Positions 10,780 to 33,521 of a stretch of DNA of 36,275 nucleotides are shown piece after piece. The stretch's first letter is position 1. The number at the start of each line of letters is the position of its first letter. The stretch is taken from contig JAJBBF010000025.1 of the NCBI GenBank assembly GCA_020532215.1, positions 1 through 36,275 on the forward strand, written 5' to 3'. The notes below the pieces were generated by a model, which worked only from the letters and a program-made list of their open reading frames with translations, made no database searches and was not told where the DNA came from. The position numbers were made by a program, and so were the translations under genes. The DNA is from Candidatus Cloacimonadota bacterium. GTDB taxonomy: Bacteria; Cloacimonadota; Cloacimonadia; Cloacimonadales; Cloacimonadaceae.

Positions 10780-10868
10780 GCTCCTATTATCATTACGGGA
10801 TAAATACGGGATCAATACGGATGAAATCCGTATTGATCCCGTATTTATCCCGTAATGATGCTGGGAGC
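10780..10868. repeat. long near-perfect hairpin built of 11-bp units
   Basis: A perfect 34-bp arm (10789-10822) is followed by a 3-base loop GAA (10823-10825) and its exact complement (10826-10859). After a short mismatched bulge, five more pairs (GCTCC at 10780-10784 with GGAGC at 10864-10868) extend the stem. Each arm contains three related units, TACGGGATAAA, TACGGGATCAA and TACGGATGAAA, and one further CAATACGG lies just outside at 10773-10780. It sits between convergent genes and may act as a two-way transcription stop, although neither end has a T tract. It could instead be an interspersed palindromic repeat of this genome. Confidence 0.9.
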
Positions 10869-29378: not shown

Positions 29379-30935
29379 ATGCTCAAGCTGTCTCTTGCTG
29401 ACGCCGCCAAACAGCGGGCTCGCGACGCTGCCGCCAGGATCGCCGGCTCTTTTGCCTGGTTGTTCGATGAATACACCTCGCTAACCATTGAGCGCACGGT
29501 TTTGCGCCTCATGGGCATCGACGGCGCCCTGAAGGACGGAAAACCCCTGCCAAACGTGGTTGTGGACCAGTTGCGCGCCCAGCAGGCCCTGGCCAGAGGC
29601 GCTGCCATCCCCGTTGCCAACGCCATGCTGGCCAAAAACATAAGCGCCCAGTCTGTGGCGGATTCCGTCGGGCACGGCGAACTCGACCTCTCCGAATTGC
29701 CTAAGGCAGCGCCGGATGAGATATTCAAGATCTTGGACACACTTTCTGACCAAATGCTGGCTCACATCGCCAAACAGCGTTCAACCCGGGAGCAAATGTT
29801 TGCCCAGTACGGTCCCCGGCGCGTTCCGGCCATCTATGTGATCGTGGCCACCGGAAACATCTACGAGGATGTGGTTCAGGCCAGGGCCGCCGCCTCTGAA
29901 GGCGCGGACATCATCGCCGTGATCCGTTCCACCGCCCAATCGCTGTTGGACTACGTGCCTTTCGGAGCCACAACTGTAGGCTTCGGTGGCACTTACGCCA
30001 CCCAAGAAAACTTCCGGATCATGCGCGTCGCCCTGGACGAGATATCAGAGCAAGAGCAGCGTTACATCAGCCTCACCAACTACGCCTCCGGGCTCTGCAT
30101 GCCCGAAATCTCCGCCATGGGGGCGATCGAGCGGCTGGACCTCTTGCTCAACGACGCCATGTACGGCATCCTCTTCCGCGACATCAATCCCCGCCGCACC
30201 TTGCTGGACCAGTATTTCAGCCGGATGATCAATGCCTATGCCGGCATCGAGATCCAGACCGGAGAAGACAACTACCTCACCACCTCCGACGCCGTGGAAA
30301 AGGCCTACACCGTGACGGCCTCGCAGCTTCTCAACGAACAGTTCGCCCTGCTGAGCGGCATCAAACCTGAAAAGATGGGGCTCGGGCACGCCCACGAGAT
30401 CGATCCTGAGCTGCCCAACAGTTTTTCTTATGAACTTGCCCACGCTCTGCTTACCCGCGAACTCTTTCCCGAAGCTCCGGTTAAATACATGCCGCCCACC
30501 AAGTTCGCCAGCGGCAATATCTTCAAGACCCATCTCATGGACGCCATGTTCAATTTCATCGGCCAGCTTACCGGGCAGGGCGTGCAGTTGTTGGGCATGA
30601 TGACCGAGGCGATCCACACCCCGCATCTGGCGGACCGGTCTCTGGCAATCGAAAACGCGCAGTATATCTTCAAGGCTGTGCAAGATCTCGATGCCAGCCT
30701 CAGCCTGGCTCCAGACAGCTGGGTGAATCAGCGCGCCAATCAGGTTCTGAACGAGGCCGCGGAATTCCTGGAGGGCGTGGCCGCCGAAGGGCTCTTTGCC
30801 GCCATGGCGAGAGGCGAATTTGCCGACATCAAGCGTCCCGAAACCGGCGGCAAGGGACTGGACGGAGTATTCCGCAAGGACGAAGGCTATTTTAATCCCT
30901 TCCTGAACAAGCTGACCAAGGAGCTGGGACTATGA
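29379..30935 (+). CDS. kamD: lysine 5,6-aminomutase, alpha subunit
   Basis: This 518-aa subunit forms the TIM barrel of the AdoCbl- and PLP-dependent enzyme that moves the terminal amino group of D-lysine (or L-beta-lysine) from C6 to C5 in lysine fermentation. Recognition rests on overall similarity, size and pairing with a convincing beta subunit. Familiar stretches are RRVPAIYVIVATGNIYEDVV, ATTVGFGGTYATQENFRI and SYELAHALLTRELFPEAP. The start at ATG 29379 has GGAG 6 bp upstream; a TTG 12 bp earlier is rejected. Its stop overlaps the beta-subunit start (ATGA), so the subunits are made together. Other lysine-fermentation genes (kamA, kdd, kce, kal) are not in the window. Confidence 0.92.
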   Translation: MLKLSLADAAKQRARDAAARIAGSFAWLFDEYTSLTIERTVLRLMGIDGALKDGKPLPNVVVDQLRAQQALARGAAIPVANAMLAKNISAQSVADSVGHGELDLSELPKAAPDEIFKILDTLSDQMLAHIAKQRSTREQMFAQYGPRRVPAIYVIVATGNIYEDVVQARAAASEGADIIAVIRSTAQSLLDYVPFGATTVGFGGTYATQENFRIMRVALDEISEQEQRYISLTNYASGLCMPEISAMGAIERLDLLLNDAMYGILFRDINPRRTLLDQYFSRMINAYAGIEIQTGEDNYLTTSDAVEKAYTVTASQLLNEQFALLSGIKPEKMGLGHAHEIDPELPNSFSYELAHALLTRELFPEAPVKYMPPTKFASGNIFKTHLMDAMFNFIGQLTGQGVQLLGMMTEAIHTPHLADRSLAIENAQYIFKAVQDLDASLSLAPDSWVNQRANQVLNEAAEFLEGVAAEGLFAAMARGEFADIKRPETGGKGLDGVFRKDEGYFNPFLNKLTKELGL

Positions 30936-31678
30936 GCAAGAAAAACATGATTCGCCCCTATGGCGATACCTCCGGCGACGGCAAGATGCAGCTTTCCTTC
31001 TGTCTGCCAGTGCCTCCTGACGCCTGGGGCAAAGAGGCCGCGCGCCTGCTGCTGAAAAACATCGGCTATGACGAGATCGAGATTTGCGGAGTGCGCGACC
31101 TGCGTGAAGGTTACACCCATTTCATCGCCTACGCGGTAACTCCGGCTTTCGTGGATCCCTCCAACATCAAGGTAAAAGTGGTGGAAACCCCGGTGATGGA
31201 CATGGAGGCCACTGACGCCTACATCCAGGACAACATCGGCCGCGAGATCACGGTGGTGGGAGCTTGCATCGAAAGCGATGCCCACACCGTGGGGATCGAC
31301 GCCATCATGAACATGAAGGGCTACAACCACCGCTATGGCTTGGAACGCTACCAGGGCTTCAACGCCATCAATCTCGGCGCCCAGGTCCCATCCGAAGAGC
31401 TTTTGCGCCGCGCCCGCGAGGCCAATGCCGATGTGATCCTCGTTTCCCAGGTGGTCACCCAGAAAAACATCCACATCAAAAACCTCACCCGGCTCATCGA
31501 ACTGGCCGAGGCGGAACAGCTGAGAGACAAAATGCTCTTCATCTGCGGCGGCCCCAGGATCTCGCACGAACTGGCGATAGAGCTCGGTTATGATGCTGGA
31601 TTCGGCACAGGCACATATTCCACCGATGTGGCGTCTTACATTGCGATCACACTTGCTGGTCGGATCGTGAAAGGGTGA
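30932..31678 (+). CDS. kamE: lysine 5,6-aminomutase, beta subunit
   Basis: The 248-aa subunit carries the cobalamin-binding Rossmann domain. The base-off B12 motif DxHxxG is present as ESDAHTVGIDAIMNMKGYNH: H118 is the lower cobalt ligand and K129 the lysine that forms the internal aldimine with PLP. The 11-residue spacing equals that of His133 and Lys144 in the Clostridium sticklandii enzyme. The N-terminal domain precedes it. The final codons (VKG, stop) are made of the first octamers of the left inverted repeat of the adjacent cassette, so the last residues may have been rewritten by an insertion. Confidence 0.94.
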   Translation: MSKKNMIRPYGDTSGDGKMQLSFCLPVPPDAWGKEAARLLLKNIGYDEIEICGVRDLREGYTHFIAYAVTPAFVDPSNIKVKVVETPVMDMEATDAYIQDNIGREITVVGACIESDAHTVGIDAIMNMKGYNHRYGLERYQGFNAINLGAQVPSEELLRRAREANADVILVSQVVTQKNIHIKNLTRLIELAEAEQLRDKMLFICGGPRISHELAIELGYDAGFGTGTYSTDVASYIAITLAGRIVKG

Positions 31679-31697
31679 AAGGGTGAAAGGGTGTAAC
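31667..31697 (+). repeat. left terminal inverted repeat of the cassette
   Basis: Three perfect tandem copies of GTGAAAGG are followed by GTGTAAC. It overlaps the end of kamE, whose TGA is at 31676-31678. Confidence 0.9.
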
Positions 31698-31740
31698 ATT
31701 ATGCCGGATCTGGCGGCGAAGAACCCATAGAGGTAACAAC

Positions 31741-32103
31741 ATGTATTCATATAGGGATCTAGATGTTTACAAGATCAGCCTGGATTTGGTGCTGGATGTT
31801 TATTCTGAGACACAGAAGTTTCCCCAAAGCGAGATGTATGGATTGATATCCCAGATGCGCCGTTGCGCGGTCTCGATACCCTCCAACATCGCCGAGGGTT
31901 CTGGACGCCACAGCACCAAAGAATTTATCCAATTTCTTTACGTGTCCAATGCATCATTATCAGAGCTGGAAACACAGTTGGAGATATCCAAGCGGTTGGG
32001 GTATATTAATGATGTGGAACACATATCATGTGGGATCGGGCGTGTACGCGTTATGCTGAACAACCTGATCCGCGCGCTAAACGAAAAGAAGGACAAGCAA
32101 TAA
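31741..32103 (+). CDS. four-helix-bundle protein (23S rRNA intervening-sequence type)
   Basis: The 120-aa, all-helical protein begins YRDLDVYKISLDL and has the family's hallmark MRRCAVSIPSNIAEGSGR (about 40-57), then EFIQFLYVSNASLSELETQL. Homologues are encoded in 23S rRNA intervening sequences of Leptospira and Coxiella and as stand-alone genes in many bacteria. They form pentamers and resemble Avd of diversity-generating retroelements, and they bind nucleic acid in some cases. The precise function is unknown. The start has AGAGG 9 bp upstream. Here the gene is not in rRNA but is boxed in by octamer inverted repeats between two metabolic genes. Confidence 0.92.
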   Translation: MYSYRDLDVYKISLDLVLDVYSETQKFPQSEMYGLISQMRRCAVSIPSNIAEGSGRHSTKEFIQFLYVSNASLSELETQLEISKRLGYINDVEHISCGIGRVRVMLNNLIRALNEKKDKQ

Positions 32104-32238
32104 ATGACAATCAAAACATCGAACTTTTGTAATCCGGCTATGATTTCACCCTTTCACCCTTTCACCCCTTCACTTAAGCACCCTCTTCGCGCTTTGGTGT
32201 TACACCCTTTCACCCTTGCACCCTTTCACGAACAATGA
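32104..32238 (+). CDS. possible 44-codon bridging reading frame
   Basis: An ATG directly after the four-helix-bundle stop (TAAATG) opens a 44-codon frame that runs through both sets of TTTCACCC octamers and stops at 32236-32238. It overlaps the rseP ATG as ATGA. Because the octamer length is not a multiple of three, the product reads as varied Pro/His/Phe/Thr residues and resembles no protein I know. It could be chance, or a coupling device that carries ribosomes to rseP, which lacks a ribosome site. There is no independent evidence of expression. Confidence 0.2.
   Translation: MTIKTSNFCNPAMISPFHPFTPSLKHPLRALVLHPFTLAPFHEQ
32144..32173 (-). repeat. inner octamer block at the right end of the cassette
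   Basis: Three perfect TTTCACCC units (32144-32167) are followed by CTTCAC. This is a second, internal copy of the right end, in the same orientation as the terminal one and 25 bp away from it. Confidence 0.9.
32199..32229 (-). repeat. right terminal inverted repeat of the cassette
   Basis: GTTACACCC followed by CTTTCACCC, TTGCACCC and TTTCAC. Its complement differs from the left repeat at one base (GTGCAAGG instead of GTGAAAGG in the second unit). It ends 5 bp before the rseP ATG. Confidence 0.9.
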
Positions 32239-33521
32239 CTCTGCTCTACACCATACTCGCATTTGGGTTAATGATATTTATCCATGAGCTTGGCCATTTC
32301 CTGGCCGCCCGCTGGTTTGGGGTGGGGATTGAAAAATTCTCCATTGGTTTCGGAAAACCGATCAAAGAGTGGAAACGCGGTGGCGTCCTCTGGCGGATCG
32401 GCTGGATCCCGCTGGGGGGATACGTGAAGATGAAAGGCGAAAACACGGATGACCCCAACCAGGAAGCGGAGGATTCTTTTCTGCGCAAAGCCTGGTGGAA
32501 AAAGGCTTTGATCGGTTTCAGCGGCCCCTTTGCCAATCTGCTGCTGGGGCTGCTGCTGTTCATCTTTTCCTTCATCCTGCCCGTGCACATCCAGGACCAG
32601 TATCCGGTTCTTAGCCAGGTTGAAGGTTCCTGGACGCAGGTTTTCTCCCCGGGCGACAGCATAGTTAGCGTGAACGGAAAACCGGTGAAGGGTTTCAGCG
32701 AATTTCTGGAAAACCTGCTGGCACAGCCGGAAAATACGGTGCTCATCAGCCGCGCCGGTGAAACAAAGACAGCCATGATAGGCTCGGAAGACCTGGATTC
32801 TCTTCTGGCCAGCGTCTATCCAATTGCCGATACCCGCGTGGGCGAGGTGGTGCCCAAAACCGCTGCCTACCATGCCAAATTGCAGCCTGGAGACCGCATC
32901 ACGGCTGTTGATTCCGTGGTCGTTTTGGACTGGTACGTGATGCGGGAAATGATCGTCAACGCGCCCCGGGACGAGGTTTTGCTCACCATCGAGCGCGACG
33001 GCGCCAGCTTCACCAAAAGCCTCAAACTGGAATCCAGCCTCAATACCAACGGCACCCGCGCCATCGGGATCATGCAATACCAGCCTGTGCGTTACGACCG
33101 CCATTTCAACATCTTGGAAGCCGTGAAACTGGGGGCTTACAACACCGCGAATTTCATCGCCCTGAACTACCGGATGCTGGGCAAATTGCTGCGCAGCCCC
33201 GGCGAGATCAGGAAATCTGTTGGCGGCCCGGTGATGATCGCTTCGATGAGCCAGCAGATTGGCGCCCGCGGCTTTGGCAGCCTGATCCTCTTCTTTGGCA
33301 GCATCAGCCTGGTGCTGATGATCATGAATCTGCTGCCCATCCCCATCCTGGACGGCGGCCTGATCCTCTTTTCCATCATCGAAGGAATCATTCGCCGGCC
33401 GATCCCTCTCAGGGTCCAGTCCGCTCTCCAATCCATTGGCTTTGTATTACTTATGGCCTTGATGATACTGGCTTTATACTCTGATGTTTCCAGCGAGATT
33501 CTTCGCTTTATGAACCGGTAG
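32235..33521 (+). CDS. rseP: RIP metalloprotease (site-2 protease)
   Basis: The 428-aa inner-membrane zinc protease cuts transmembrane segments, for example of anti-sigma factors or signal-peptide remnants. The zinc motif HELGH is at 17-21 in the first membrane helix, with the conserved SGPFANLLLG motif (about 96-105). The third ligand aspartate is in NLLPIPILDGG near the last membrane helices. Two PDZ domains lie between (QVFSPGDSIVSVNGKPVKG; HAKLQPGDRITAVDSVVVLD), as in E. coli RseP. No ribosome site precedes the ATG, which is 5 bp from the cassette's right repeat, so translation may rely on coupling or be weak. tgt follows 6 bp downstream. Confidence 0.94.
   Translation: MTLLYTILAFGLMIFIHELGHFLAARWFGVGIEKFSIGFGKPIKEWKRGGVLWRIGWIPLGGYVKMKGENTDDPNQEAEDSFLRKAWWKKALIGFSGPFANLLLGLLLFIFSFILPVHIQDQYPVLSQVEGSWTQVFSPGDSIVSVNGKPVKGFSEFLENLLAQPENTVLISRAGETKTAMIGSEDLDSLLASVYPIADTRVGEVVPKTAAYHAKLQPGDRITAVDSVVVLDWYVMREMIVNAPRDEVLLTIERDGASFTKSLKLESSLNTNGTRAIGIMQYQPVRYDRHFNILEAVKLGAYNTANFIALNYRMLGKLLRSPGEIRKSVGGPVMIASMSQQIGARGFGSLILFFGSISLVLMIMNLLPIPILDGGLILFSIIEGIIRRPIPLRVQSALQSIGFVLLMALMILALYSDVSSEILRFMNR

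Follow-up and report, generated by a model that had tools for sequence, protein, structure and literature searches.

A four-helix-bundle IVP gene bounded by inverted tandem arrays looks like a small mobile element

Between the genes kamE and rseP of a Candidatus Cloacimonadota genome lies a cassette of a single gene, which encodes a protein of the type found in intervening sequences (IVSs) of 23S rRNA (IVP) and is enclosed by two short tandem arrays in inverted orientation. The stretch of DNA analysed, called the window below, covers 36,275 nucleotides of contig JAJBBF010000025.1. Together, the IVP gene and the word of its arrays look like a small mobile element, so far unrecognised. We consider it probable that the protein reads this word, much as RAYT proteins are paired with REP elements. 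Comparison of sequences brings out ends that share a word specific to each cassette, junctions that are occupied in some genomes and empty in others, cassettes that are homologous but differ in context, dispersal of the word, and sites between a stop and a start codon. The evidence for mobility is thus comparative throughout, and the functional steps proposed below are all inferred from sequence.

Features of the window cassette and its two neighbours are collected in the table. The first-pass annotation had described ends that are inverted copies of each other at 30 of 31 bases, an extra octamer block a short way inside the right end, and kamE and rseP as neighbours; all of this is confirmed. 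When extended, the arms reach 34 nt each and are 97% complementary. A 19-mer of the array word, with up to three mismatches allowed, has six matches in the window, where 0.03 would be expected from shuffles. The IVP gene is the sole substantial ORF within the cassette, with no encoded transposase besides, and an Rfam search over the window gave no match.

Table. Coordinates of the window cassette and the adjacent genes (window positions)
Feature	Position	Strand	Remarks
kamE (lysine 5,6-aminomutase beta), upstream neighbour	30932..31678	+	TGA stop codon (31676-31678) inside the 5' (left) array
5' array	31667..31697	+	GTGAAAGG x3 + GTGTAAC, i.e. four octamer-type units
Shine-Dalgarno-like GAGGT	31730..31734	+	6 nt upstream of the IVP ATG; read from the sequence
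IVP gene	31741..32103	+	120 aa, four-helix bundle (PF05635 / TIGR02436)
Inner 3' array	32144..32173	-	GTGAAGGG GTGAAAGG GTGAAAGG GTGAAA on the minus strand; 25 nt inward of the outer right array
Outer 3' array	32199..32229	-	inverted copy of the 5' array, 30/31 bases
rseP (site-2 protease), downstream neighbour	32235..33521	+	ATG 5 nt past the 3' array

To our knowledge, the IVP family (PF05635/TIGR02436) has remained uncharacterised ever since it was described in 23S rRNA IVSs. The earlier assignment of the inner gene to the four-helix-bundle proteins of rRNA IVSs is borne out by profile matches to PF05635 (3.6e-35) and TIGR02436 (1.4e-34), with a weak one to Avd (3.4e-4). No match to an HUH/Y1 transposase (RAYT) was found for the window protein, which matches IVP families alone, and it contains no recognised recombinase or nuclease motif. 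Phage records searched at E 1e-5 contained no IVP. The predicted structure is a four-helix bundle (pLDDT 96.8) whose nearest neighbour is XCC0516 of Xanthomonas (2GSC, TM about 0.9), followed by BT_0352 (2RLD) and then by Avd (TM about 0.75). XCC0516, a solved relative, is a pentamer, and the literature describes the IVP family and Avd as both pentameric.

The junctions around kamE, rseP and tgt were compared in 13 genomes of the genus. In five congeners there is no gap between kamE and rseP, so the cassette is not universal at this site; in three genomes the two genes lie about 90 nt apart without an IVP gene. An IVP cassette follows kamE in the genome of the window (G000) and in G003, G007 and G012, and a decayed one is found in G002. 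The rseP-tgt junction is occupied in G003, G005, G007 and G012; in G002 it holds a decayed cassette, and G000 has no cassette there. The words of the cassettes at these junctions differ (GTGAAAGG, AGATGAAC, GTGGAAGC, GAGAAAAA, GGGCAAAA and GGGGAAAA), and the two ends match within each. Several cassettes are simply inherited at the same junction, which counts against mobility, and in orthologous cassettes the two arrays change together. A tree of kamE, rseP and tgt places G003 with G002; the kamE cassettes instead pair G003 with G012 and G000 with G002, a mismatch that could reflect turnover, transfer or differential loss. At the empty kamE-rseP junction of another genome (G009; L146, about 740-775), the last kamE codons and the stop read GTGAAAGGGTGA, which amounts to 1.5 units of the window word. 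It may be either a pre-insertion target that resembles the word or a scar left by excision.

Array-bounded IVP genes are general. We assembled 149 distinct IVP genes of many phyla from relatives, a cross-phylum scan and further genomes, the sample consisting of draft and MAG genomes and one genome-wide protein scan. Each gene was scored by the ungapped inverted-repeat match between its 5' and 3' flanks, with 250 positions from the same loci as controls. A score of at least 15 is reached by 83 of the 149 genes and by none of the controls. Octamer- or heptamer-bounded IVP cassettes are thus very numerous in other genomes. Left and right ends of the same cassette pair at 14 or more in 61%, against 0.7% for left ends set against foreign right ends, and the inverted orientation beats the direct one in 78 of 87. 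Among IVP genes below the score, arrays confined to one side or degenerate arrays are frequent. Units are mostly 7 or 8 nt long (range 7-9), with about four at each end, and G exceeds C on the upstream strand of the arrays in 84 of 94.

Word and protein appear to go together. Periods 7 and 8 are clustered on the protein tree (built from few columns), with 10 changes against a shuffled mean of 24; none of 500 shuffles was as low. One motif common to all words was tried and came out weakly above within-unit shuffles (3.4 against 2.5-2.8 bits for period 7; 4.3 against 3.2-3.7 for period 8); thus, the words are mainly cassette-specific. None of the IVP loci examined contains 23S signature k-mers.

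Replicons with and without the cassette can be paired outside the genus as well. Among conjugative plasmids of Nostocales, those of Trichormus and Scytonema have an IVP cassette directly past a stop codon, with the heptamers TCAGAAT/TCAGGAG/TCAGAAG; those of Tolypothrix and N. linckia, 97.8% identical to the carriers, are without it, and the counterpart on a Nostoc plasmid (C052) holds a decayed remnant. Downstream of traM, C052 and a second Nostoc replicon (C057) form a presence/absence pair in which about 45 bp are replaced. Further pairs are found at nrdB/nrdA, with a cassette antisense to the operon in N. edaphicum compared with Calothrix, and behind an integrase gene (Calothrix brevissima compared with Tolypothrix and N. 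carneum). Three cassettes, each in a context of its own, are homologous, with 79-83% identity across about 420 bp, and two copies lie 5 kb apart in one genome (G015), where the 429 bp shared at 96% consist of the gene and parts of the arrays.

In 65% of the 83 cassettes, no more than 20 nt separate the start of the 5' array from a same-strand ORF stop, against 7.6% of control positions, and a start codon often follows closely on the end of the 3' array. This bias towards stop-start junctions may arise from targeting, from selection against damage, or from both. A general target-site duplication was considered and rejected: one plasmid pair seemed to offer a candidate (a possible 8-bp duplication with one mismatch), and the outer edges of the 83 cassettes show no excess of direct repeats (mean 3.41 compared with 3.40 for foreign pairs, p 0.49).

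The cognate word is also scattered through the genome that carries the cassette. In the draft assembly of G000 (1.95 Mb, 80% complete), GTGAAAGGGTGAAAGG with at most one mismatch has 62 matches, compared with 0 for the reversed control pattern. Besides the window cassette, about 15 sites spread over 11 other contigs carry the word, in an assembly with a single IVP gene. These sites are mostly solo arrays ending in GTG[T/A/G]AAC, some of them just past the stop of a gene, and several long perfect GTGAAAGG-type runs stand at contig ends, where the assembly broke. As an exact 16-mer, GTGAAAGG occurs 41 times in G000 and 0-3 times in each of 60 relatives. Three units of AGATKAAC match 20 times in G012 and 5 times in G003, genomes that both carry that cassette; G005 has 3 matches, and the other ten genomes of the genus, G000 included, have none; thus, the GTGAAAGG and AGATKAAC words segregate with their cassettes. 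The AGATGAAC word is dispersed in two congeners that carry its cassette. In G005, whose assembly is 89% complete, AGATGAAC arrays occur but no IVP matches them, which counts against the main reading. Empty junctions, the scattered word and the many IVP cassettes elsewhere together support the original suggestion of a free-standing IVS relative that spreads between genes.

At the solo-array sites of G000 the flanks are mostly too diverged from those of congeners for a clean empty-site alignment, that on contig C23 excepted. There, a solo GTGAAAGG array in G000 corresponds in G003 (L322, C5 near 74100) to a GTGAAAGG-like array followed directly by an array of AGATGAAA, the word of G003's own cassette. 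On contigs C30, C34 and C150 of G000 (L034, L035, L042), some octamer arrays are flanked by a larger dispersed repeat, made up of a CAGCATTCCAATGCTG palindrome and GGAATCCAG-rich blocks.

Heptamer arrays of a similar kind have been reported before. Those of Xanthomonas (GGGAATC) and Nostoc (GGGGA(C/T)T) mostly consist of four heptamers and often lie just past stop codons; Xcc has 186 GGGAATC arrays, with four units preferred, and Xanthomonas has about 70-75 convergent inverted pairs (PMC4692102). G. metallireducens has 49 copies of four-heptamer elements (PMC2700814). In both studies the arrays were left unexplained and without a link to IVP, and in the open-access literature (preprints outside the scope) we found no paper connecting IVP genes with tandem arrays. 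There was no Xanthomonas among the 369 gammaproteobacteria scanned, and the nearest test is a genome (G435) whose repeats and proteins suggest kinship with Xanthomonas. Three units of GGGANTC have 22 matches there, 17 in Geobacter sp. AOG1 (G061) and 0 or 1 in 18 others, several of which have IVPs with other words. In G435 the IVP gene separates accB from accC, and each of its flanks has four GGGAATC-type heptamers; that of Geobacter sp. AOG1 is flanked by GGGACTC arrays. IVP cassettes are thus a candidate explanation for the arrays of Xanthomonas, Nostoc and Geobacter, a link drawn from these two genomes, which belong to unrelated proteobacteria. Many dispersed copies in the two genomes are inverted pairs round a short gene-less spacer, as in REPINs. 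The spacers of three gene-less inverted GGGAATC pairs in G435 (L299, L301, L304) share a hairpin-like core, CCCTCCCCTTCAAGGGGAGGG.

How might such an element work? Because protein, word and unit spacing co-vary, IVP may read the tandem units, plausibly with one subunit per unit; recognition of the octamer ends, proposed at first reading, stands to the extent that this co-variation implies it. IVP, acting on either DNA or RNA, would then mobilise the cassette that encodes it as well as the dispersed arrays, in the manner of RAYT proteins and REP/REPIN; the presence/absence data are most simply read in this way. Since the cassette ends are complementary, any transcript across them could fold to an extended stem like that of 23S rRNA IVSs. 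The IVS of Coxiella has tandem heptamers beside its ORF and a 28-bp stem (PMC4990558), so rRNA IVSs are probably elements of this kind that have settled in rRNA. We hold more tentatively, and would lean slightly against, the broader proposition that there is a widespread, unrecognised class of mobile elements whose pentameric four-helix-bundle protein would by itself recognise the tandem 7- or 8-nt units at its ends and drive the movement of both cassette and gene-less dispersed arrays, while protein, word and unit length evolve together, and that rRNA IVSs and the Xanthomonas, Nostoc and Geobacter arrays would be its products.

Each known family that we considered shares something with the cassette. 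The 23S rRNA IVSs of Leptospira, Coxiella and Salmonella likewise contain an IVP/S23p ORF and have complementary, stem-forming ends, but they lie in an rRNA gene rather than between protein genes, whereas the cassettes have a cognate word dispersed genome-wide and cassette-specific words in many phyla. RAYT (TnpA-REP) genes are bounded by inverted copies of a short element, further copies of which are scattered through the genome singly or in inverted pairs (PMC3116915, PMC8266576), and both systems have an intergenic bias. RAYT, however, is an HUH/Y1 transposase and IVP a 120-aa four-helix bundle, and REP ends are single palindromes, in contrast to tandem units of 7-9 nt. DDE-type transposons and MITEs have terminal inverted repeats, as the scored cassettes do, together with a target-site duplication and an encoded transposase; the cassettes have no general target-site duplication, and that of the window encodes no transposase. 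Avd of diversity-generating retroelements (DGRs) has the fold of IVP, but DGRs need a reverse transcriptase partner. Thus the cassette departs from each family in a defining trait (location for IVSs, protein for RAYTs, reverse transcriptase for DGRs, transposase and target-site duplication for DDE elements), and in its working it is most like RAYT/REP.

An alternative that we rate as unlikely, but weightier than the others, places the element at the RNA level: the arrays would pair in the transcript, and RNase III would cut the stem, or IVP would bind this RNA, making an insertion tolerable in an operon or rRNA, with spread via RNA or host recombination and not through IVP acting on DNA. The window cassette RNA does fold to a stem of roughly 36 bp (z -5.7), and rRNA IVSs, which share this ORF, end in a 28-bp stem and are excised by RNase III, with the tandem heptamers of Coxiella beside the ORF. 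That the two arrays change in step in orthologous cassettes also speaks for it. This account sits poorly with cassettes that are antisense to their operon (nrd of N. edaphicum), with solo arrays, which are unable to form the stem, and with the absence of a reverse transcriptase from G435 and Geobacter sp. AOG1 despite their dispersed arrays, which leaves no obvious enzyme for an RNA intermediate. It is compatible with the main reading.

We find it improbable that IVP is an immobile local regulator, with the arrays as its operators and a regulon whose sites, the dispersed arrays, are maintained by selection. Such a regulon would account for the dispersal of the cognate word, and the heptamer elements of G. 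metallireducens were annotated as putative regulator binding sites; but whole cassettes are present or absent on plasmids 97.8% identical, homologous ones stand in unrelated contexts, and the arrays follow stop codons instead of lying at promoters. In Xanthomonas, moreover, array-adjacent genes have no common function (PMC4692102).

The first-pass annotation had also allowed for a helper in trans. As a reverse transcriptase, this helper is contradicted: RVT_1 is absent from G435, G061, G007, G019 and G022, all of which have IVP cassettes, and the first two also have dispersed arrays; thus, the element can do without a reverse transcriptase, and either some other helper in trans or IVP itself may carry out the chemistry. 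A DGR-like system of IVP and a reverse transcriptase in trans is very improbable for the same reason, despite the structural similarity to Avd (TM about 0.75) and the one RVT_1 of G000. We know of no tandem arrays described for DGRs. That the arrays are ordinary replication-slippage repeats, with IVP a chance passenger, is hardly credible: some genomes do abound in heptamer arrays (PMC4692102) and array lengths vary, but slippage would not produce 83 of 149 against 0 of 250, own-end pairing of 61% against 0.7%, the inverted orientation, or a period that tracks the protein clade.

An IVP that mobilises its cassette would give one testable account of the role of the family, the origin of 23S rRNA IVSs and the four-unit arrays near stop codons. 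If IVP binds its word, it would be a new repeat-reading protein, with a specificity legible from the DNA round its own gene. A CRISPR-linked 23S_rRNA_IVP has also been reported (PMC3936711, PMC10910872), in Pleurocapsa between cmr2 and cmr3. A plasmid of Picosynechococcus PCC 7003 has the same arrangement (L384 1489-1845), and on pAQ6 of PCC 7002 the two genes are adjacent without an IVP; here, this reads as one insertion of many. IVP thus likely recurs as CRISPR-linked because it inserts between cas genes, and the reports of a link to CRISPR or immunity may describe insertions in cas operons.

Elsewhere in the window (10792-10860), between two genes, there is a near-perfect hairpin of 11-nt words, ATTACGGGATAAATACGGGATCAATACGG and CCGTATTGATCCCGTATTTATCCCGTAAT on either side of a loop. 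Similar ATCAATACGG repeats occur near an array site of G000 (C112, L039) and in G003 (L337), apparently as members, with the hairpin, of another dispersed repeat family.
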